In this document: positions 28,227-39,133 of the stretch, piece after piece
How positions within the stretch are numbered: the first letter of the stretch is position 1
Layout of the letters: each line of letters starts with the position of its first letter
DNA from: Ilumatobacteraceae bacterium
GTDB taxonomy: Bacteria > Actinomycetota > Acidimicrobiia > Acidimicrobiales > Ilumatobacteraceae
Length of the DNA stretch: 58,752 bases
Direction: 5' to 3'
Assembly (NCBI GenBank): GCA_021298195.1
Contig: JAJTEQ010000006.1
Coordinates: 1-58,752 of the forward strand
Program-made: the position numbers and the translations under genes
Notes under the pieces: model-generated
Seen by the model: the letters and a program-made list of their open reading frames with translations, nothing else
The model's database searches: none
What the model was told of the DNA's origin: nothing

Positions 28227-28302
28227 TGGTGGTCGAGACCGGCGTCGATCCGGTGACCCTACGCTTTTCAGGCGTATGCTCTGCCGACTGAGCTACTCGA
28301 CC
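28227..28302 (-). tRNA. tRNA-Phe (GAA)
   Basis: 76 nt. Acceptor GGTCGAG pairs with CTCGACC; the anticodon stem TACGC/GCGTA holds the loop CTGAAAA with anticodon GAA; the T-arm contains GATCGACGC. The CCA end is encoded. Last of three minus-strand tRNA genes. Confidence 0.95.
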
Positions 28303-28330
28303 TCGTGCGCTCGTTTCCGAAACGCACTAG

Positions 28331-28404
28331 CGGTCCCGACGGGACTCGAACCCGCGACCTCCGGCTTGACAGGCCGGCGTGAACTCCAACTTCACCACGA
28401 GACC
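28331..28404 (-). tRNA. tRNA-Asp (GTC)
   Basis: 74 nt. Acceptor GGTCTCG/CGGGACC (one G-T pair), anticodon stem CCGGC/GCCGG with loop CTGTCAA giving GTC, T-loop GGTTCGAGTCC. CCA is not encoded and must be added. Confidence 0.95.
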
Positions 28405-28473
28405 AAACGTTGATTGCTCATTGCTTGGGTATTGCTGTATGTCAGGCATTGCTATCACCGGTTGCCCGGTTTG

Positions 28474-28546
28474 CACCCCCAACGGGATTCGAACCCGTGC
28501 CGCCACCTTGAAAGGGTGGTGTCCTAGGCCACTAGACGATGGGGGC
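28474..28546 (-). tRNA. tRNA-Glu (TTC)
   Basis: 73 nt. Acceptor GCCCCCA/TGGGGGT with a G1-U72 wobble usual in actinobacterial tRNA-Glu; anticodon stem CCACC/GGTGG with loop CTTTCAA giving TTC; T-loop GGTTCGAATCC. CCA not encoded. First of the cluster. Confidence 0.95.
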
Positions 28547-29479: not shown

Positions 29480-30430
29480 ATGTCCGTCGGATCCCGTCCT
29501 CTCGTGCCGTCGCGGCTGGCACCGGGCGGCGTGGCCGCGCACGGCCCTCGGCGCGCCCCCACCACCATGCTCGGGGGGTACGTGGCGCTCATGAAATTGC
29601 GGGTGGTCGAGTTGTTGCTCATCACGACCGTCCCGACCATGGTGCTGGCCGAGAAGGGCTGGCCGTCGTGGGGCTTGGTGGTGGTGACCCTGATCGGGGG
29701 GACCTTGGCCGCGGGCGGGGCCAATGCCATCAACATGGTCGTGGATCGCGACATCGACGCCCTGATGGAGCGGACCAAGGGTCGCCCGCTGGTGACCGGA
29801 TTGATCGCCCCCAGGAATGCCCTGATTTTTGCATTGTCCCTGCAAGTGGCGGCTTTCGTGGTGCTCTGGGTCGGCGCAAACCTGCTCTCGGCGGTGCTCA
29901 CCATGTCGGCCACGCTCTTCTACGTGTTCGTCTACACCTTGTGGCTGAAGCGGACGAGTCGTCAGAACATCGTCATCGGGGGAGCCGCCGGGGCGGTTCC
30001 GGTGCTGGTGGGCTGGTCGGCGGTGCAGGATTCCCTGGCCTGGGAGCCATTTATCCTGTTCACAGCCATTTTCTTGTGGACCCCACCCCATTTTTGGGCC
30101 CTGGCCATCAAACACGCCGACGACTACAAGGCCGCCCAGGTTCCCATGCTGCCCACCGTCGTTTCCATGCGCCAGACCATCATCTCGATGCTCGTCTACA
30201 CGGTGTTGTTGACCGCCGTCAGCCTCGTCTTGGGGCCGGTGGCCGGTCTGGGACCGATCTACATGGTGTCGGCGGCGGTTCTGGGGTTGGGATTCATTCT
30301 GAGTGCGGTCGATCTGGGCCGACACCCCACGCCGGCCCGATCGATGCGGGTGTTCGGGTTCTCGATCACCTACGTGACGGTGCTCTTCGTGGCCATGGCC
30401 GTCGACGTCGTGGTCGAGCACGGCGTCTGA
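29480..30430 (+). CDS. ctaB: Protoheme IX farnesyltransferase (heme O synthase)
   Basis: 316 aa, about nine membrane helices. UbiA-superfamily prenyl-diphosphate motifs NAINMVVDRDIDALMERTKGRPL and the second loop IKHADDYKAAQVPMLP. It farnesylates heme b to heme O for the aa3-type oxidase encoded downstream. Start taken at ATG 29480; ATG 29568 at MLGGYVALMK is an alternative. Longer upstream reading runs antisense to clpS. Confidence 0.95.
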   Translation: MSVGSRPLVPSRLAPGGVAAHGPRRAPTTMLGGYVALMKLRVVELLLITTVPTMVLAEKGWPSWGLVVVTLIGGTLAAGGANAINMVVDRDIDALMERTKGRPLVTGLIAPRNALIFALSLQVAAFVVLWVGANLLSAVLTMSATLFYVFVYTLWLKRTSRQNIVIGGAAGAVPVLVGWSAVQDSLAWEPFILFTAIFLWTPPHFWALAIKHADDYKAAQVPMLPTVVSMRQTIISMLVYTVLLTAVSLVLGPVAGLGPIYMVSAAVLGLGFILSAVDLGRHPTPARSMRVFGFSITYVTVLFVAMAVDVVVEHGV

Positions 30431-30587: not shown

Positions 30588-32204
30588 ATGACATCAATTG
30601 ATACGCACCACGCCGCCGGAACCGCAGCGGCTCCCCCCGCAGTCGCCGTGTGGATCACGTCGGCCGACCACAAGCAGGTCGGTCGGTTGTACGCCGGCAC
30701 CGGACTCGTCGGTCTGTTGGCCGGTCTCGTGCTGGCGGTGCTCGTTGCGTTCGAACGCATCGACGCCGAGGGTTATCAGTTGCTGGACACCGACTCGGCC
30801 ACGCAGGTCCTGGCCGCGGCGCGCCTTCTGCTGACGTTCGGCGCGGTCGCTCCCTTGTTGCTCGGTCTCGCGGTGGCCATCGTGCCGTTGCAGCTCGGTG
30901 CCCGCTCGTTGGCTCTCCCCCGGTTGGCCGCTGGCGGTTTCTGGATGTGGCTCACGGGTCTCGGTCTCGCCGTGGCGTCGATCATCGCCAATGGTGGTCC
31001 CGGCGGCGGGTCGTCCGAGATGGTCGACTTGTACCTGCTCGGAACCATCGTCATGTCGTCGGGTCTCCTCATGACCGCGACGTCGGTGGCCACCTCGGTT
31101 CTCACCACGCGCGCGCCGGGCATGGGTCTGCTGCGTGCGCCGCTCTTCGCCTGGTCGGCGTTGGTGGGTTCGGTGACCATGCTCCTGGCCCTGCCGGTCT
31201 TCGTCGGCACGTCCATTTATTTGTGGGTCGATCACAAGTACGCCCGCGCGGCGTTCGGTGGCAACGTCGGGGTCTCCGACTGGGCCGGCTGGGCGTTGTC
31301 GCAACCGTTCACCTATCTGCTCGCGATTCCGGCGCTCGGAATGGTGCTCGACATCGTGCCCGTGATGGGTCGCACCTCGTTGGCTCAGCGCACGGGCGCG
31401 TACGTGGCCCTCGGAATCGTGTCGATCGCGACGTTGGCCACCGTCACGCAAACGATGGTCACCTTGCCGTGGGACGGTGACTCGTTCTTCGACAACGCCG
31501 GCGACAAGATCGCCGACCTGTTGCCGTGGGGTCTGCTCACCGTGATCCCGCTGTTGGGCGTGCTCGGTGTGCTCGGAACGAGCGCGCTCACGTTGAAGAA
31601 CGGCAAGCCGCGTGTCGCCGCGCCGTTGGTGTTCGCGATGCACGGTCTGCTCACCATCGTCCTCGGTGTCGCGGCTCACATCTTGGGCTCGATCGACGAC
31701 GCCGGTGTGCGCGGCTCGATCTTCGAAGCCGGTACCTACGTCGCCATCACGTTCGGTTCGGTCACCGTGGCCTTCGGTGCTCTGTGTTACTGGGGCCCGA
31801 AGTTGTGGGGCCGTCGCATCTCGGACAAGGCCGCGCTCCCCTTGGCTTTGCTCGCTCTTCTCGCCACCGCCCTGGGCTCGATCCCGTACATGATCGCCGG
31901 CTTCGCCGATCAACCCGCCGGTGCTCTCGACGGATTCGCCTACGACGGTCCGCAGGAGTTGTGGAACACCCTCACCACCGCCGGATTCGCGTTGATGTTG
32001 CTCACCTCGCTCGGATTCATCGCACTGGCCGCCAAGAGCTTCACCTCGGGTGAGGCCGCCGGCGACGATCCGTGGGACGGTCAAACTCTCGAATGGGCCA
32101 CGTCATCGCCTCCTCCGGCCGACAACTTCTCCGATCTCGCGGTCGTCGGGTCGGCCACCCCGCTCCTCGATCTCAAGTCCGCTTCGAACGGGAAGGACGC
32201 CTGA
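30588..32204 (+). CDS. Heme-copper oxidase subunit I-like protein lacking all metal ligands
   Basis: 538 aa, about 12 membrane helices. It begins VWITSADHKQVGRLY and ends DDPWDGQTLEWATSSPPPADNF, both hallmarks of oxidase subunit I, and has VPLQLGAR and YWGPKLWGR. Lining it up by eye with CtaD downstream, the low-spin heme His97 is Ala78; HPEVY is QPFTY (CuB His275 to Gln239, Tyr kept); the CuB pair HH324-325 is Gln288-Thr289; and the HFH heme ligands are absent, with no His between residues 365 and 410. So heme and copper binding as in oxidases is not possible. First of three genes between ctaB and ctaC; role unknown (structural, regulatory, or proton/ion channel). Confidence 0.85.
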   Translation: MTSIDTHHAAGTAAAPPAVAVWITSADHKQVGRLYAGTGLVGLLAGLVLAVLVAFERIDAEGYQLLDTDSATQVLAAARLLLTFGAVAPLLLGLAVAIVPLQLGARSLALPRLAAGGFWMWLTGLGLAVASIIANGGPGGGSSEMVDLYLLGTIVMSSGLLMTATSVATSVLTTRAPGMGLLRAPLFAWSALVGSVTMLLALPVFVGTSIYLWVDHKYARAAFGGNVGVSDWAGWALSQPFTYLLAIPALGMVLDIVPVMGRTSLAQRTGAYVALGIVSIATLATVTQTMVTLPWDGDSFFDNAGDKIADLLPWGLLTVIPLLGVLGVLGTSALTLKNGKPRVAAPLVFAMHGLLTIVLGVAAHILGSIDDAGVRGSIFEAGTYVAITFGSVTVAFGALCYWGPKLWGRRISDKAALPLALLALLATALGSIPYMIAGFADQPAGALDGFAYDGPQELWNTLTTAGFALMLLTSLGFIALAAKSFTSGEAAGDDPWDGQTLEWATSSPPPADNFSDLAVVGSATPLLDLKSASNGKDA

Positions 32205-32803
32205 TGCTCGCGTTGCCCCCCGCACCCACCGCTCCGGCGCGCCGTCAGGTGTTCGTCGGAACCGCCTTGGCCATCACGGCGGCCACGACCCTTCTCGGCG
32301 GAATGTTGGCCACGTGGCTGCAGTTCCGCGCCGACGCTCCGTTGCGCGAGTCGCCTCGTCGCGGGTTGATCAGGGATTGGATGCCCGAGAAGATCCTCGT
32401 TCCCGAGGTTGCCACGAACATGATGTTGATCGGTCTGTGCGTCGTGTGCATCATGGCCCAGTGGGCGGTCTATTCCGCCAAGCGCGCCGACCGCACCCAC
32501 GCGGGCTTGGCCTTCGGGCTCACCGCGCTGTTCGGTCTGATGGTGGTCAACGCTCAGGTGTTCACCTGGACGCAGATGGGCGTCGCGGCCAACGACGGCG
32601 CCTTCCACACCATGTTCTACGCCATCACCGGCACCATGACCCTTCTCCTGGTGGTCGGCATCGTGTTCACCGCAGTCGCGGCCTTCCGATTCCTCGGCGG
32701 GCGCACCAAGGAACTCGAGGTCGTCTCGGCGAGCGCTTTGTATTGGTACTTCCTCACCGCGGCCTTCACCGCGGTGTGGTTCGTCGTCTACGTGCAGAAG
32801 TGA
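32204..32803 (+). CDS. Cytochrome oxidase subunit III-like protein (divergent)
   Basis: 199 aa with five predicted helices. VPEVATNMMLIGLCVVC matches the GSECLLFGGL helix of subunit III, and the end ALYWYFLTAAFTAVWFVVYVQK lines up with GLYWHFVDIVWIVIFTLVYLIPS of the true subunit III, losing the His and Asp. It overlaps the preceding stop as TGATG, so translation is coupled. Probably the partner of the ligand-less subunit I-like protein. Confidence 0.75.
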   Translation: MLALPPAPTAPARRQVFVGTALAITAATTLLGGMLATWLQFRADAPLRESPRRGLIRDWMPEKILVPEVATNMMLIGLCVVCIMAQWAVYSAKRADRTHAGLAFGLTALFGLMVVNAQVFTWTQMGVAANDGAFHTMFYAITGTMTLLLVVGIVFTAVAAFRFLGGRTKELEVVSASALYWYFLTAAFTAVWFVVYVQK

Positions 32804-32816
32804 CGGGGCAGAACAC

Positions 32817-33959
32817 ATGATCACCACCGGCTCGAAATTCCTCTACGGACTGGGAAGCGCGACCTCGATCGCGGCCATTCTCTGGTTCATCGCCAACGAC
32901 GGGGGCTCCATCGGTGTCGTGTCGCTGGCCTTCCTCGCCGTGGCGTTGTTCTTCATGGGGGCCATCGCGTCGTTCGTTCGCGACGGTCACGTGTTGTCCA
33001 CGGACACCGACGCGCACGCGTCGAGCAATGCCGCCCAACGGAACGTCGGTCGTAGCTGGTTCCCCGTCGGCACGGCGTTCTCAGCCGGCATGGTGGCCGT
33101 CGGTTTGGTCAGTTCACCCGGCATCTTCAAGGTCGGCATCTGCCTGCTGTTCGCGATGCTCGGTCAGTGGCTCATCAAGAACTGGAGCGATCGCGCGTCA
33201 TCGGACGCCGCGTACAACGAGAAGGTGCGTGCCTGGGTCGTGCACCCGCTCGAGATCCCCGTCGGTGGCGCCATCGTCCTCGCGATCATCGTCCTGTCGT
33301 TCTCGCGCATCATGCTGTCGTTGTCGAAGGAGTCGGGCCTCATCGTCTTCTCGGTGATGGCCGCCCTCGTTCTGACGTTCGGTTCGATGGTCAGCGTTCG
33401 GCGTGGTGCCAGTCGGCGGGTCATCGGCGCCGTGGCGGGCGTCGTGTTGGTCGCCTTGTCGGGCACGGGTATCGCGTTCGCCCTCGACGGTGAGCGTCAC
33501 GAGTTGGTCGAGGCCGCGGCCGAGGATCATTTCGCGCATCGCGCCTGTGGCGAGGAAGCCGAGGAGACCGACGAGGATGCCGCCCGTTCGGTGTCGGCCA
33601 AGAGCAGCGTGGCCGCCACGGTCATTCTGCGCGACGGCCGTCTCTTCGCCGAGATGGACGGATGGAACGGTGAATTGACCAGCATCACGCTGCAGCGCTC
33701 CAACCCGTCGACGATCCTCTTCGTCAACGAGGACGATCACGAACACCGCATGGTGGTGGAGTACGGAAAGATCGTCGAGGATCTCGGCGGCGGAGTGTCC
33801 AAGGACACCGTGCTCGAAGCGTGCACCTCACTCATCACCAAGGGTGGCACCCAAGCGGTGTCGATCGTCATCCCCAAGCCCTCGTTCGCAAGTGAAGAGC
33901 CGTACTCGATCACCGTTCCCGGTGTCGAAGGTGCGTCCATCGAGATTCAGGTGCCGTGA
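32817..33959 (+). CDS. Membrane protein with cupredoxin-like C-terminal domain
   Basis: 380 aa. About seven hydrophobic segments lie in residues 8-225, followed by a soluble domain. Residues 298-320 (STILFVNEDDHEHRMVVEYG) resemble the strand around the first His ligand of cupredoxins; Cys336 could be a second, but the usual terminal Cys-His-Met cluster is missing and no His follows 310. Type 1 copper therefore looks unlikely. Third gene of the ligand-less module, 13 nt after the subunit III-like gene and 78 nt before ctaC. Function unknown. Confidence 0.6.
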   Translation: MITTGSKFLYGLGSATSIAAILWFIANDGGSIGVVSLAFLAVALFFMGAIASFVRDGHVLSTDTDAHASSNAAQRNVGRSWFPVGTAFSAGMVAVGLVSSPGIFKVGICLLFAMLGQWLIKNWSDRASSDAAYNEKVRAWVVHPLEIPVGGAIVLAIIVLSFSRIMLSLSKESGLIVFSVMAALVLTFGSMVSVRRGASRRVIGAVAGVVLVALSGTGIAFALDGERHELVEAAAEDHFAHRACGEEAEETDEDAARSVSAKSSVAATVILRDGRLFAEMDGWNGELTSITLQRSNPSTILFVNEDDHEHRMVVEYGKIVEDLGGGVSKDTVLEACTSLITKGGTQAVSIVIPKPSFASEEPYSITVPGVEGASIEIQVP

Positions 33960-34037
33960 GTCACCCCCGCCCCCATAGAGAGTCGATCTGAACCCATGAG
34001 TACCGTGAGCAACATGAACGAGCGAGCAGGAGTGCCG

Positions 34038-35258
34038 ATGAAGTCGTCGCGTCGTTGGTCGAACATCATCAAGCCGGTTCTGGCCGTTTCATCGTTGATC
34101 GCCGTGGCGGGATGCGCCAAGGACGCACCTCAGGACACCTGGCAGCCGGCCGGTCCGAACGCCAAGATGATCGACGATCTGCAGCGTCCCATCTTCTACA
34201 TCGCCGGCATCGTCGGTGTGATCGTCTTCGCCGCGGTGGCCTGGGCGATCTTCCGCTTCCGCGATCGTGGCCAGGCGATGCCCGAGCAGACGCACGGCAA
34301 GCCGGCCCTCGAGATCACCCTCACCGTGATCCCGGTGTTGATTCTCATCGGTGTCGGCGTGCCGACGGTCGGGACCATCTTCGATCTGGCGAAAACCGAT
34401 GACACCGAGATGACCATCAACGTCACCGGTCAGCAGTGGTGGTGGGAATACGACTATCCGGCGGTCGGTGACAACGCCGAGGTGTACGGCATCAGCGATC
34501 CGATCGTGACCTCGGGTCAACTGGTCATTCCCGAGGACACCAAGGTCCTGTTGCGCGTCACCAGTCGAGACGTGATCCACTCGTACTGGATTCCCAAGTT
34601 GAACGGCAAGAAGGACAGCGTCCCCGGTCGCGTGCACCTGTTGCGCATGGAGGGCTCCGAACCCGGTATCTACGCCGGACAGTGCACCGAGTTCTGTGGA
34701 CTGTCGCACGCCTACATGCGCATGGAGGCCGTGGTGCTGTCCAAGGCCGACTACGCGACCTGGGTGGCGAACCAGTTGGAGGCCTACAACTCTCCGTCGG
34801 CGGACAACGTCCTGGCCGTCGAGGGCGAGAAGCTGTTCCTCCAGCAGTGCGCTCGTTGCCACCAGGTGAACGGCTTGCTCAACGCCGACGGAACACCGAA
34901 CGTGGCGGCCCCCGATCAGTACGTGGTGTCGGGCGCGGCGCCGAACCTCACCAACCTCATGACGCGCAACACGTTCGCCGGTGCCTCCTGGGATCTCCTG
35001 ACGCCCGAATGTCGCGATGACGTCTGGAACGCCACACCGGCGGAATTCGGCGAGAAGTACCTGGCCGGCGTCAGCGAGGATTGCCTCAACCAGAAGGACC
35101 TGCGCGAGTGGTTGCGCAACGCTCCCGAGAAGAAGCCCATGTACGCCGACCCCACCAAGCTCACCGAGACCGGTGGCAAGTACCGCGGCATGCCCGCCCT
35201 CGGACTCACCGAGGATCAGATCTCTGCCCTCGTCGCCTACCTACTCGAACTGAAGTAA
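34038..35258 (+). CDS. ctaC: Cytochrome c oxidase subunit II with fused cytochrome c domain (caa3 type)
   Basis: 406 aa. A lipoprotein signal ends VAGC26; two membrane helices follow, then a CuA domain (DVIHSYWIPKLNGKKDSVPGR ... QCTEFCGLSHAYM) and a C-terminal cytochrome c domain with CARCH and a late GMPALGL Met ligand. It accepts electrons from cytochrome c or directly from the bc complex. ATG 34038 has AGGAG five nt upstream and starts an ideal signal peptide; ATG 33996 in frame is possible. Confidence 0.94.
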   Translation: MKSSRRWSNIIKPVLAVSSLIAVAGCAKDAPQDTWQPAGPNAKMIDDLQRPIFYIAGIVGVIVFAAVAWAIFRFRDRGQAMPEQTHGKPALEITLTVIPVLILIGVGVPTVGTIFDLAKTDDTEMTINVTGQQWWWEYDYPAVGDNAEVYGISDPIVTSGQLVIPEDTKVLLRVTSRDVIHSYWIPKLNGKKDSVPGRVHLLRMEGSEPGIYAGQCTEFCGLSHAYMRMEAVVLSKADYATWVANQLEAYNSPSADNVLAVEGEKLFLQQCARCHQVNGLLNADGTPNVAAPDQYVVSGAAPNLTNLMTRNTFAGASWDLLTPECRDDVWNATPAEFGEKYLAGVSEDCLNQKDLREWLRNAPEKKPMYADPTKLTETGGKYRGMPALGLTEDQISALVAYLLELK

Positions 35259-35273
35259 AGGGAGAACACTCAG

Positions 35274-37289
35274 ATGGCCATCATCGAACGTCCCTCCTCC
35301 GAGGTCGCCATTGCCGGCGGCTCCACGGTCGGCGTCAAGCCGAGCGAAGCCCTCGGAGTCTTCAAGCGCCCGGCCGCCAGCACGTCCTGGCGTGACTGGA
35401 TCGTCACGGTCGACCACAAGAAGCTCGGCATCATGTACGGCGTCGCCGCGTTCTTCTTCTTCATCGTGGGCGGACTCGAGGCGGTGCTCATCCGCATGCA
35501 GCTCATCGCTCCCAACGGCAAGGTCCTGAACGCCGATCAGTACAACCAGATGTTCACGATGCATGCCACCACGATGGTGTTCCTCTTCGTGATGCCCATG
35601 GCGGCGGCTTTCGCCAACTACTTCGTCCCGTTGCAGATCGGCGCCCGTGACGTGGCCTTCCCGCGTATCAACGCCTTCGGCTTCTGGTGCTTCCTGTTCG
35701 GTGGAATCTTCCTCAACACCGCGTGGTTCCTGGGTGGCGCGGCCGATGGCGGCTGGTTCATGTACGCCCCGAACTCCAGCACGTTGTTCTCGCCGAGCCA
35801 TGGCATCGACTTCTGGTCGATGGGTCTGCAGATCACGGGCATCGCCTCGCTCACCGGCGCGATCAACCTCATCGTGACCATCCTGAACATGCGTGCGCCG
35901 GGCATGAAGATGATGCGCATGCCCATCTTCACCTGGATGGTGTTGGTGGTGCAGTTCCTGCTGTTGTTCGCCATCCCGGTCATCACCGTGGCGCTCTTCC
36001 TGCTCACCTTCCAGCGTTCGTTCGACGCCACGTTCTTCGACGTGGCCTCCGGTGCGGACCCGCTGTTGTGGCAGCACCTGTTCTGGATCTTCGGTCACCC
36101 CGAGGTGTACATCTTGATCCTGCCGTCGTTCGGCATCGTGTCCGAGATCCTGCCGGTCTTCTCGAAGAAGCCCTTGTTCGGTTACCCCATCGTCGCCATG
36201 TCCGGTGCCGCCATCGGTTTCGTGGGCTGGGGCGTGTGGGCTCACCACATGTTCGCGTCCGGACTCGGTCCGGTGTCGGTGACGGTGTTCTCGATGGCCA
36301 CCATGGCCATCGCGGTTCCCACCGGCGTCAAGATCGTGAACTGGGTCATGACCATGTGGGGAGGAAAACTGCAATTCACGGTACCGATGTTGTTCTCCAT
36401 CGCGCTCGTCGTGCAGTTCACCATCGGCGGATTGTCCGGCGTGACCCATGCCGTCGCCCCCAGCGACACGCAGCAGACCGACACCTACTACATCGTGGCC
36501 CACTTCCACTACGTGCTGTTCGGTGGCGCGATCTTCGGATTGTTCGCCGGCTTTTACTACTGGTGGCCGAAGATGTTCCGTAAGCAATTGAGCGAGAGCC
36601 TCGGCCGCTGGAACTTCTGGCTGATGGTGGTGGGCATGAACATGACCTTCGGTCCGATGCACATGCTCGGATTGCAGGGCCAACCCCGTCGTATGTCGGT
36701 CTGGACCGAGGCCCGCGCGGGTGAGGGTTTCTTCAACCTGGGCTTCTGGAACCGCATCTCGTCGATCGGATCACTGGTCCTGTCGCTCGGCGTGCTGCTG
36801 TTCATCATCAACGTGGTGTACACGCACAAGTCCAAGAAGGTGGCCATCGCGCCGCTCGACCCGTGGGACGGACGCACCTTGGAGTGGATGACCGACAGCC
36901 CGCCCAAGGAGCACAACTTCGACACCATCCCGACCATCAACAACCTGGACGAGTTCTTCCACCGTAAGTACGCCCAGGACGCCACGACGCACGAGATCAC
37001 CCAGGTGGCCACGGCCGAAGAGGTGTTGGCCGAGATGAACGCGCACCCCGACGAGCACATTCACATGCCGTCGCGGTCGTACTGGCCCATCTTGTTGGCG
37101 TTGGCACTTCCGATCATCGGCTACGGCCTCATCTACAACCGCGTCATCCTGGCGGTCGGTGTGGCCATGGTCGTGGCGACGATGTTCGGTTGGGCCATGG
37201 AGCCTTCCACGGCCGCCGATGACGATTTCGATCCGCCCGCCCCCGGTGACGGTGGCGGCCACACGAAGGAGTTGGCGCCCCTTGGCTGA
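35274..37289 (+). CDS. ctaD: Cytochrome c oxidase subunit I
   Basis: 671 aa, longer than usual because of a C-terminal extension with further membrane helices. All ligands are present: low-spin heme His97 (MFTMH) and His412, high-spin heme His410, CuB His275 and HH324-325, and the cross-linked Tyr279 of HPEVY. It reduces O2 to water and pumps protons. It lies 15 nt after ctaC and its last eight bases overlap the TTG start of ctaE. Confidence 0.96.
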   Translation: MAIIERPSSEVAIAGGSTVGVKPSEALGVFKRPAASTSWRDWIVTVDHKKLGIMYGVAAFFFFIVGGLEAVLIRMQLIAPNGKVLNADQYNQMFTMHATTMVFLFVMPMAAAFANYFVPLQIGARDVAFPRINAFGFWCFLFGGIFLNTAWFLGGAADGGWFMYAPNSSTLFSPSHGIDFWSMGLQITGIASLTGAINLIVTILNMRAPGMKMMRMPIFTWMVLVVQFLLLFAIPVITVALFLLTFQRSFDATFFDVASGADPLLWQHLFWIFGHPEVYILILPSFGIVSEILPVFSKKPLFGYPIVAMSGAAIGFVGWGVWAHHMFASGLGPVSVTVFSMATMAIAVPTGVKIVNWVMTMWGGKLQFTVPMLFSIALVVQFTIGGLSGVTHAVAPSDTQQTDTYYIVAHFHYVLFGGAIFGLFAGFYYWWPKMFRKQLSESLGRWNFWLMVVGMNMTFGPMHMLGLQGQPRRMSVWTEARAGEGFFNLGFWNRISSIGSLVLSLGVLLFIINVVYTHKSKKVAIAPLDPWDGRTLEWMTDSPPKEHNFDTIPTINNLDEFFHRKYAQDATTHEITQVATAEEVLAEMNAHPDEHIHMPSRSYWPILLALALPIIGYGLIYNRVILAVGVAMVVATMFGWAMEPSTAADDDFDPPAPGDGGGHTKELAPLG

Positions 37290-37896
37290 CACCGCGATCG
37301 CCCACGGCCATGACTCGGGTCATGGCGCCCACGTCACCTCGACCGGTTTGTCCAACAACAAACTGGCGATGTGGATGTTCCTCGGATCCGAATGCTTGCT
37401 GTTCGGTGGACTCATCTCCACGTACATGCTCTACAAGGGTCGCGTGAATTCGGGCCCCCAGCCCGACCAGATCTTCGACATCCCGTTCACCTCGGTCAGC
37501 TCGTTCGTGTTGCTCATGAGCTCGCTCACCATGGTGCTGGCGGTGTCGGCGGCCCAGCGCAAGGACGACCGCAACACCAACCTGTGGTTGACCATCACCG
37601 CACTTCTGGGTGCCACATTCGTCGGCGGTCAGGTGTACGAGTTCACGGCCTTCTACCGCGAGGGCTTGGGCTTCACCACCAGCCTGTTCGGCTCCAGCTT
37701 CTACACCCTCACCGGATTCCACGGCGTGCACGTCAGTGTGGGCATCATCATGCTGATGGCGTTGGTCGGGATGATCAGCCGCAATCGCATTCCGGGCAAC
37801 AAGGCCGAGTCGGTGGAGCTGGTGGGCCTCTACTGGCACTTCGTCGACATCGTCTGGATCGTCATCTTCACCCTCGTCTACCTGATCCCGTCCTGA
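37282..37896 (+). CDS. ctaE: Cytochrome c oxidase subunit III
   Basis: 204 aa from TTG 37282; AAGGAG ends ten nt upstream, and this start gives a normal MADTAIAHGHDSG terminus. Membrane helices include KLAMWMFLGSECLLFGGLIS with the conserved Glu, TLTGFHGVHVSVG, and GLYWHFVDIVWIVIFTLVYL. It stabilises proton uptake into subunit I. Overlap with ctaD implies coupled translation. Confidence 0.94.
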   Translation: MADTAIAHGHDSGHGAHVTSTGLSNNKLAMWMFLGSECLLFGGLISTYMLYKGRVNSGPQPDQIFDIPFTSVSSFVLLMSSLTMVLAVSAAQRKDDRNTNLWLTITALLGATFVGGQVYEFTAFYREGLGFTTSLFGSSFYTLTGFHGVHVSVGIIMLMALVGMISRNRIPGNKAESVELVGLYWHFVDIVWIVIFTLVYLIPS

Positions 37897-37906
37897 GGAG
37901 CCAACG

Positions 37907-38248
37907 ATGAGCACCGCCACCGACCACAGCGCCACCGCCGATCACTCCACGGAGCACGCGGAGGAACATCACGGCGCCAGCGACAAGCAGTACATCGTCA
38001 TCGCCTTGATCCTCGCGGCCCTCACGGCCATCGAGGTGTCCACGTACTACGTCGATTTCGGACCGTTGTTCATGCCCACGTTGTTCGTGCTGATGACCGT
38101 GAAGTTCATCGTCGTGGTTTCGTACTTCATGCACCTCAAGTTCGACAACAAGTTGTTCAGCTACCTGTTCTACACGGGTCTGATCCTGGCTCTCGCCGTC
38201 TACATCGGCGCCCTCTCCACCTTCAAGTTCTTCCTGCAGAAAGGCTGA
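37907..38248 (+). CDS. ctaF: Cytochrome c oxidase subunit IV (prokaryotic)
   Basis: 113 aa. A His-rich soluble start is followed by three hydrophobic segments (YIVIALILAALTAIEVSTYY; TLFVLMTVKFIVVVSYFMHLKFD; LFYTGLILALAVYIG). VVSYFMHLKFD is typical of the COX4_pro family. Small structural subunit, 10 nt after ctaE. Confidence 0.88.
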   Translation: MSTATDHSATADHSTEHAEEHHGASDKQYIVIALILAALTAIEVSTYYVDFGPLFMPTLFVLMTVKFIVVVSYFMHLKFDNKLFSYLFYTGLILALAVYIGALSTFKFFLQKG

Positions 38249-38251
38249 ACC

Positions 38252-39133
38252 ATGTGGGCCATGGAGAATCCGTGGCGTTTCCAATCGCACATCGAGGTGT
38301 GGTTGCTGATCACCTTCCTGGTGGCGTCCTACGTGTACGTGGTGCGCGTGCTCGGACCCAAGGCGGTGGCACCCGGAGAGTCGGTGGTGACCAAACGCCA
38401 GGTGCTGTGTTTCGTGGCCGGCATCACGACGTTGTGGGTCGGTTCGGACTGGCCGATGCACGACATCGCCGAGGAGTACCTGTACTCGGTGCACATGTTC
38501 CAGCACATGGCCCTGACCTACTTCATGCCGCCGCTGGTGGTGTTGGCGACGCCCGAATGGTTCGTGCGCATCCTGGTGGGCAAGGGGCGGGCGCTTCGGG
38601 CCCTCAACTTCATGGTGCATCCGGTGCGGGCCGCGTTTCTCTTCAACGTGATCATCATGGTCAGCCACGTTCCCGCGGTGGTGAACCGTTCGGTGTCGAA
38701 CGGACCGCTCCACTATTCGGTGCATTTCTTGTTGGTGACCACGTCGATCCTGATGTGGTTGCCGGTGTGCGGTCCGTTGAAGGAGTACCACATCTCACCG
38801 ATGGGCAAGATGATCTATCTGTTCCTGAACAGCGTGGTGGCCACGGTGCCGGCGGGTTGGCTGACGTTCGCCGAAGGAACGGTGTACAAGCACTACAACA
38901 CCCCGGTGCGGGTGTGGGGAGTGTCGGTCAGCAACGATCAGCAGATGGCCGGTGCGATCATGAAACTGGGCGGCTCGATCTTCCTGTGGACCATCATCGG
39001 CGTGATGTTCGTGCGCACCTTCGTCAGGACGTTCCGTCACGAGAACGACACGGCGTACGTCCGTAAGCCGTTGACGATGGCCGACGTGGAGAAGGCCTTC
39101 GAGGAATCCGAACCCATCCGCGAATCCCGCTGA
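38252..39133 (+). CDS. ctaG: Cytochrome c oxidase assembly protein CtaG (caa3 type)
   Basis: 293 aa polytopic membrane protein. GSDWPMHDIAEEYLYSVHMFQHMALTYFMPPL and VNRSVSNGPLHYSVHFLLVTTSILMWLPVCGP carry the conserved His residues of the caa3_CtaG family, which assists copper insertion or maturation of subunit I. Three nt after ctaF, last gene of the oxidase operon; it ends at a strong hairpin. Confidence 0.9.
   Translation: MWAMENPWRFQSHIEVWLLITFLVASYVYVVRVLGPKAVAPGESVVTKRQVLCFVAGITTLWVGSDWPMHDIAEEYLYSVHMFQHMALTYFMPPLVVLATPEWFVRILVGKGRALRALNFMVHPVRAAFLFNVIIMVSHVPAVVNRSVSNGPLHYSVHFLLVTTSILMWLPVCGPLKEYHISPMGKMIYLFLNSVVATVPAGWLTFAEGTVYKHYNTPVRVWGVSVSNDQQMAGAIMKLGGSIFLWTIIGVMFVRTFVRTFRHENDTAYVRKPLTMADVEKAFEESEPIRESR

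Follow-up and report, generated by a model that had tools for sequence, protein, structure and literature searches.

What use could an organism have for a heme-copper oxidase subunit I that no longer possesses a usual ligand for any of its cofactors? The active site of these enzymes is usually regarded as the reason for the existence of their fold. The question is raised by a gene at positions 30588..32204 (+) of a 58,752-nucleotide stretch of DNA from an Ilumatobacteraceae bacterium (order Acidimicrobiales; assembly GCA_021298195.1, contig JAJTEQ010000006.1), the whole of which is referred to here as the window. The product of this gene, designated I*, had been described in an earlier interpretation of the letters alone (the sequence-only reading) as a full-length subunit I paralogue within an oxidase operon, in which all heme and CuB ligands are replaced and which would be selected for a non-redox job.

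The reading frame of I* is open throughout 30588-32204 and encodes a protein of 538 aa. The COX1 profile PF00115 matches it over nearly the whole model (4.7e-35, 121.7 bits, cut-off 34.8), and AF2 predicts an all-helical protein with 12 long helices (pLDDT 79.4, pTM 0.84) that resembles oxidase subunit I structures in Foldseek (E 5.9e-21, TM about 0.77). Solved CtaD chains match at up to 6.5e-45, the best matches being mycobacterial and corynebacterial CtaD. The PF00115 domain and the 12-TM fold thus place I* in the heme-copper oxidase superfamily, and the full-length paralogue recognized by the sequence-only reading is borne out, whereas the score against the NCBIfam CtaD_CoxA model TIGR02891 (200.8 bits) lies far under the curated cut-off of 670.75. 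In fold, length, and the DHK, VPLQxGAR, and RAPGM motifs, I* is the same as the actinobacterial aa3-type CtaD (an A-type subunit I). The N-terminal DHK motif and the VPLQLGAR motif that had been pointed out earlier are indeed common to CtaD, as is the C-terminal tail DPWDGQTLEWATSSPPP (32067..32117, +), previously taken as a subunit I signature; both proteins end in DPW..TLEWAT.SPPP. The source assembly (91% complete) contains one other COX1 gene, which is the canonical ctaD of the same operon.

This operon has the order ctaB–I*–III*–gene3–ctaC–ctaD–ctaE–ctaF–ctaG, with all genes on the + strand. The upstream gene at 29480..30430 (start approximate, 29567 also possible; PF01040 UbiA, 2.7e-64) is presumably ctaB (heme O synthase), as judged from its context. 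A cluster of three tRNAs (Phe, Asp, Glu) is located at 28227-28546 (-). Downstream of gene3, ctaC (33996..35258; PF00116, PF00034) encodes a true subunit II with a cytochrome c domain, and ctaD (35274..37289; PF00115, 2.9e-153) a true subunit I with all ligands; its C-terminal extension aligns with part of PF12270 (2.7e-06), so that a CtaF-like piece is fused to subunit I in the window. They are followed by ctaE, the true subunit III (37336..37896 as searched, start approximate; PF00510, 3.4e-19), ctaF, a COX4_pro subunit (37907..38248; PF03626, 7.4e-12), and ctaG, a Caa3_CtaG assembly factor (38252..39133; PF09678, 4.3e-41).

The two genes between I* and ctaC are also related to oxidase components. 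III* (32204..32803, +; 199 aa) begins with an ATG at 32204 that overlaps the TGA stop of I*. It matches COX3 PF00510 at 6e-08 (33.3 bits, over the gathering cut-off of 23.8), which supports the subunit III-like partner proposed earlier, yet it is only 24% identical to CtaE of the same operon (blastp, 9e-12). The product of gene3 (32817..33959, +; 380 aa) consists of an N half similar to CtaF (PF12270), additional TM helices, and a C-terminal cupredoxin-like domain, as indicated by profiles and Foldseek. Its direct match to PF12270 is colinear and weak (E 1.6, 9.3 bits against a gathering cut-off of 26.9), and the relation of the N half to CtaF is established only via the gene3 profile, which finds CtaF-like ORFs near ctaD/ctaE in other actinobacteria at 1e-11 to 1e-17; three of these were tested and all three were named PF12270 by Pfam. 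The C half matches TM-plus-cupredoxin proteins whose genes come after ctaG in canonical operons of other parts of the phylum, and its cupredoxin fold was recognized by Foldseek at 3.6e-05 from the cupredoxin part alone, as the AF2 model of the whole protein is poor (pLDDT 65, pTM 0.36). In the window, this domain (approximately 33609..33956, +) is degenerate: the type-1 copper ligands His..Cys..His..Met are absent from gene3 of the window clade and present in basal members. In the module I*-III*-gene3, subunit I, subunit III, subunit IV, and cupredoxin thus recur in this order, and, in contrast to the CtaD oxidase, a subunit II is lacking. The CtaF-like and cupredoxin parts, separate elsewhere, are fused into one protein in gene3. 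Membrane-bound cupredoxins are mentioned for the COX system in passages of a published study (PMC8239418). Among the operons elsewhere in the phylum, the TM-plus-cupredoxin gene lies behind ctaG at L241-L256, L258, and L260, with the exception of L253, where it lies behind ctaF; L255 belongs to another order of the same class as the window, and two copper motifs lie within the final 150 aa at L245, L258, and L260. An apparent gene3-ctaC fusion was rejected, as the CtaC ORFs of 648-811 aa at nine loci proved to include wrong-frame upstream sequence.

Alignment of I* with CtaD of the same operon reveals replacement of every cofactor ligand. In helix II (30813..30833, +), A78 replaces the heme a histidine H97; in helix VI (31302..31316, +), QPFTY replaces HPEVY with its CuB His, Glu, and Tyr (H275 to Q239); in helix VII (31446..31460, +), TQTMV replaces the CuB HH pair (H324/H325 to Q288/T289); and in helix X (31725..31745, +), EAGTYVA replaces AHFHY with its heme a3 and heme a histidines, the HFH of CtaD 410-412 corresponding to TYV at 383-385 (H410/H412 to T383/V385). 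Hence, the three CuB histidines of an oxygen reductase (Q239, Q288, and T289 in I*), the heme a3 histidine (T383), and the two heme a histidines (A78 and V385) are all missing; the partner of H325 moves by one residue between alignments (T or M) and is not His in either. The A-type channel residues are also gone (D to S in the D channel, K to V in the K channel, and E to F), as is the Arg pair of CtaD. The residue pairs and numbering of the sequence-only reading are thereby confirmed. In the same alignment, 141 of the 143 canonical CtaD sequences carry the full identical 12-residue signature, which, together with recurring orthologues and the low dN/dS values reported below, excludes chance or a frame error. 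I* retains CtaD-conserved positions at 25 of 39 sites in the presumed cytoplasmic loops, including 12 of 14 in the C-terminal tail, at 7 of 19 in the presumed periplasmic loops, and at 44 of 139 in the helices (6 of 7 in helix III); the loop sides and the CtaC-facing surface are assumed from the usual topology of subunit I. This pattern fits the preservation of contacts with subunit III and on the cytoplasmic side and the loss of contacts with the CuA subunit.

I* is under purifying selection. NG86 dN/dS values against the four closest orthologues (L033, L048, L034, and L040) are 0.031, 0.081, 0.082, and 0.090, respectively, so that the pseudogene-like ratio near 1 that would speak for decay is excluded. 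Against the same four, III* gives 0.064-0.145 and gene3 0.079-0.123. For CtaD, the usable pairs (L033, L048, and L040) give 0.034, 0.031, and 0.048, and I* has thus evolved faster than CtaD in two of three usable pairs, yet is constrained. The CtaD value of 1.09 against L034 was obtained at 79% cover on a short contig and was taken as an artefact and left unused. Omega is unreliable for the distant pairs, which have a large dS (I* against L038 0.21, L036 0.20, L039 0.11, L043 0.09, and L059 0.46). The earlier assertion that I* is not a misreading is therefore upheld by its open frame, by the ligand-poor state of orthologues in many genomes, and by these ratios.

The search for orthologues in related genomes, suggested by the sequence-only reading, recovered I* across many genomes of the order. 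Prevalence was counted by gene3, because a search-score cut failed to separate divergent I* from CtaD. With the gene3 profile, 226 of 298 genomes of the order match at 1e-6, including 26 weak matches (9.5e-7 to 1.7e-16) and 200 strong ones (2e-38 or better). The strong matches, counted from the listing like the preceding two figures, cover 42 of the 61 families of the order and are absent from 98 of the 298 sampled genomes, implying that other lineages do without the I*-III*-gene3 module. In a sample of the class, 63 of 296 genomes have a gene3 match at 1e-20, 62 of them in the window's order; the 63rd (G307) is a CcoN-like cupredoxin fusion described below. Among the matches listed for 346 genomes of the phylum, those from beyond the order span gene3 only in part. 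One genome of the same family as the window (G421) has neither a gene3 match at 1e-20 nor a COX1-like match at 1e-80, and was not counted as a sign of dispensability, because the whole operon may be missing there.

Gene order around I* is highly conserved. CtaD lies downstream in all 105 loci with at least 4.5 kb of sequence behind I*, and likewise at a 400-bit cut, and CtaB lies upstream in 156 of the 158 loci with at least 0.7 kb in front. Among the first 146 loci, gene3 follows I* in 141 and III* is present in 145 (129 at first and 16 more found in the gap); L020 shows neither III* nor gene3. Of 20 loci fetched later via gene3, 19 have I* in the same place (two partial), and the contig ends in the other.

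To place I* among oxidases, 307 COX1-like ORFs gathered from related loci and from the genome searches were aligned, comprising 143 canonical CtaD and 164 I* without the CuB pair. As iterated profiles mixed the two families, they were classified by ligand columns and tree. Since His at two CuB positions was the criterion for the split itself, the tree rather than the count provides the independent evidence. Rows for a broken ORF (L136 4363) and pieces of L047 ctaD were dropped before counting, ORFs shorter than 450 aa in one alignment and 440 aa in the tree alignment were removed, and identical sequences were counted once. In the FastTree phylogeny, all 164 I* are monophyletic with support of 1.0, apart from the 143 canonical CtaD, and the clade persists after deletion of the 12 ligand columns. 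In an earlier tree with 146 I*, the I* stem joins 30 canonical CtaD (support 0.999), a placement that is relative to the sample because the tree has no outside root. These are mostly CtaD of CtaC-CtaD-CtaF operons and not the caa3-type CtaD of the window operon; a CtaF-like ORF lies beside CtaD in 20 of the 22 whose neighbours were inspected. Within I*, the deep branches have moderate support: 1.0, 0.87, and 1.0 at successive deep nodes, and under 0.5 at some inner ones.

The relatives of I* differ in what they retain. None of the three CuB histidines is present in 156 of the 164 I*, one is present in the other 8, and never more than one. In contrast, 35 of the 164 keep both low-spin heme a histidines, 12 of which keep the heme a3 histidine as well. 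Orthologues with intact ligands, which had been named as evidence against the earlier interpretation, thus exist in part for the hemes; an intact CuB set occurs in none. Of the 35 pair-keeping proteins, 25 sit in the three deepest branches: a branch of seven sequences is all heme a only; a branch of twelve includes nine with heme a and a3 ligands, two with heme a only, and one with neither; and a branch of eight includes six with heme a only and one with all three. For instance, L188 of the twelve-sequence branch has the motifs FSM[H], G[R]PDVY, and G[H]LH. In the Fitch parsimony reconstruction, the I* root has the low-spin His pair and 9 changes are needed, against 22-23 if only losses are counted.

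The copper site of gene3 was scored at the same loci, with 36 of the 164 left out (31 cut and 5 whose stretch lacks gene3). Twenty loci have an intact type-1 copper motif, 19 of them together with the low-spin His pair. Of the 99 assessable loci lacking the pair, 98 have no copper site (60 without the domain and 38 with a tail lacking the site), the sole exception being L269 (G030), where gene3 has a copper site and I* no heme ligands; of the 29 assessable loci with the pair, 10 have no copper site (9 without the domain and 1 with a tail lacking the site), all of these being raw locus counts uncorrected for kinship. The coupling of heme pair and copper site is therefore not strict. At nine loci (L175, L188, L194, L195, L268, L270, L271, L273, and L275), the heme a and a3 histidines are kept, the helix VI CuB His is an Arg, no His is found at the aligned helix VII positions, and gene3 carries a type-1 copper motif; judged by these residues, the I* of these loci are possible two-heme, CuB-less proteins. 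The intermediate early branches imply that the cofactors of an oxidase I–III–IV module were lost and its genes retained, and the window clade is the end of this loss series.

How could such a module have arisen and what might it do? An oxidase core comprising subunits I, III, and IV and a cupredoxin domain would have been duplicated without subunit II and become non-catalytic, with the loss of CuB preceding the radiation of the sampled I* family. The early branches, as judged from their ligand content, would have a heme a site, in some cases also a heme a3 site, and a type-1 copper site in gene3, so that electrons could pass between the gene3 copper and the heme a of I*; no usual oxygen chemistry is expected there because CuB is absent. 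The window lineage would then have lost the heme a, heme a3, and gene3 copper sites altogether. The selection for a non-redox job envisaged by the sequence-only reading is accordingly supported for the window organism, by full length, purifying selection, and a conserved operon, but does not extend to the family as a whole, since some orthologues keep heme ligands. As no usual redox ligands are left and the genes are kept beside ctaC-ctaD, the preserved use of the window module is probably structural or assembly-related, and it most likely concerns the real oxidase, even if a constant gene order may by itself stem from co-regulation or common descent. The likeliest arrangement is a separate membrane complex of I*, III*, and gene3, which may dock on, or help to build, the CtaCDEFG oxidase as a partner and not as an electron carrier. 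We give about an even chance to the view that I*-III*-gene3 is a catalytically dead, putative structural or assembly partner of the adjoining CtaCDEFG oxidase. Against this view stand the lineages of the order that do without the module and the presence of CtaB, CtaG, and SURF1, which leaves no assembly step obviously missing. The source assembly also encodes SURF1 and a bc-type cytochrome b, and alternative complex III was rejected as no NrfD match was found in this assembly (91% complete); with cytochrome b and SURF1 present and NrfD unmatched, the I* module may possibly serve as a link in a bc-caa3 supercomplex.

Several other uses should be weighed against this partner role. I*-III*-gene3 may act only in biogenesis without being part of the mature oxidase; it could, for instance, hold heme O/A from CtaB or apo-CtaD/CtaE, or pass copper via the cupredoxin. 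The nearly constant position of I* behind ctaB, the membrane-bound cupredoxin genes that canonical operons in other parts of the phylum have after ctaG, and the type-1 copper site kept in early members are in line with this idea, whereas in the window clade the usual heme and copper ligands that could hold either cofactor are gone, and the operon already encodes CtaB and CtaG, with SURF1 at another place in the assembly; a purely biogenetic platform is therefore a serious though unlikely alternative. It is improbable that the COX1 fold of I* has been reused as an ion, quinone, or gas channel. The fold is predicted to be kept in full, and conserved polar residues exist outside the old sites (Q102, R112, R175, and N460), but the first three of them belong to motifs shared with CtaD, and a D- or K-channel proton route through I* is unlikely because the D-channel Asp, the Glu, and the K-channel Lys are retained in only 5, 9, and 0 of the 164 I*, respectively.

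The pocket of I* was once a heme pocket, because early branches keep heme ligands, and the window clade might still bind heme or a metal via other residues. A candidate is H216 (window 31233-31235, in VDHKY at the end of helix V), which is His in 78 of 164 I* and nearly invariant in an alignment of window-related I* (A3), and is Arg in all 143 CtaD. Against such a non-canonical cofactor, I* has on average 6.9 His per protein versus 15.6 in CtaD, and apart from H216 only H28, which sits in the DHK motif common to CtaD, marks a column where 40% or more of I* have His; this makes such a cofactor distinctly improbable. Lastly, I* could be a duplicate on its way out, as the lost ligands and the 98 genomes of the order without a strong gene3 match might indicate. 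This is scarcely credible in view of a single clade with conserved gene order, the occurrence of gene3 in 42 families, the retention of invariant residues, and the dN/dS values of 0.03-0.09 against the four nearest orthologues.

Beyond the role of a partner in the window, a broader reading may be put forward tentatively, with somewhat less than an even chance: a whole oxidase core (I, III, and IV) would have become a permanent non-catalytic partner, its relatives showing the stages, and the COX1 fold would be a reusable membrane scaffold. The stages would run from proteins that had lost CuB and kept heme a and a3 (with Arg for a CuB His and a plastocyanin-like copper domain), through heme a only, to nothing. 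A ligand-free COX1 fold has apparently been used a second time in other orders of the class, to judge by the ligand positions of a CcoN-like family that matches in 65 of 296 class genomes at 1e-25, none of them in the window's order. This family resembles CcoN of cbb3 oxidases but lacks its ligands: in the 20 members aligned (L288 and 19 others, L290-L308), none has His at any of the six ligand positions of a solved CcoN. The member in G307 (L288:8093-10237, -) carries a fused cupredoxin with a copper motif, and its gene immediately precedes ctaC-ctaD; ctaC/ctaD occur in none of 20 other stretches with the family. At four loci with neighbours checked, cytochromes c were found, a FixO-like one in three, as well as a cytochrome b in one, and two members are fused to FixO.

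The Core 1 and Core 2 proteins of the mitochondrial bc1 complex are inactive enzyme homologues kept as structural subunits. I* is similar in being a retained inactive homologue; it belongs instead to the membrane core subunits of oxidases by homology, and its membership in a complex is putative. In the literature covered at the level of titles and abstract openings, and in passages of PMC8239418 and PMC9145763, no description of the I* family was found. That this family, conserved over much of the order, keeps the fold, its subunit III, and its operon while dropping the cofactor sites suggests that the protein frame itself has a selectable use. In addition, the intermediate I* proteins, which have heme ligands and no CuB and lie next to a type-1 copper domain, lend themselves to studying the contribution of CuB and the way in which an enzyme turns into a structural part.
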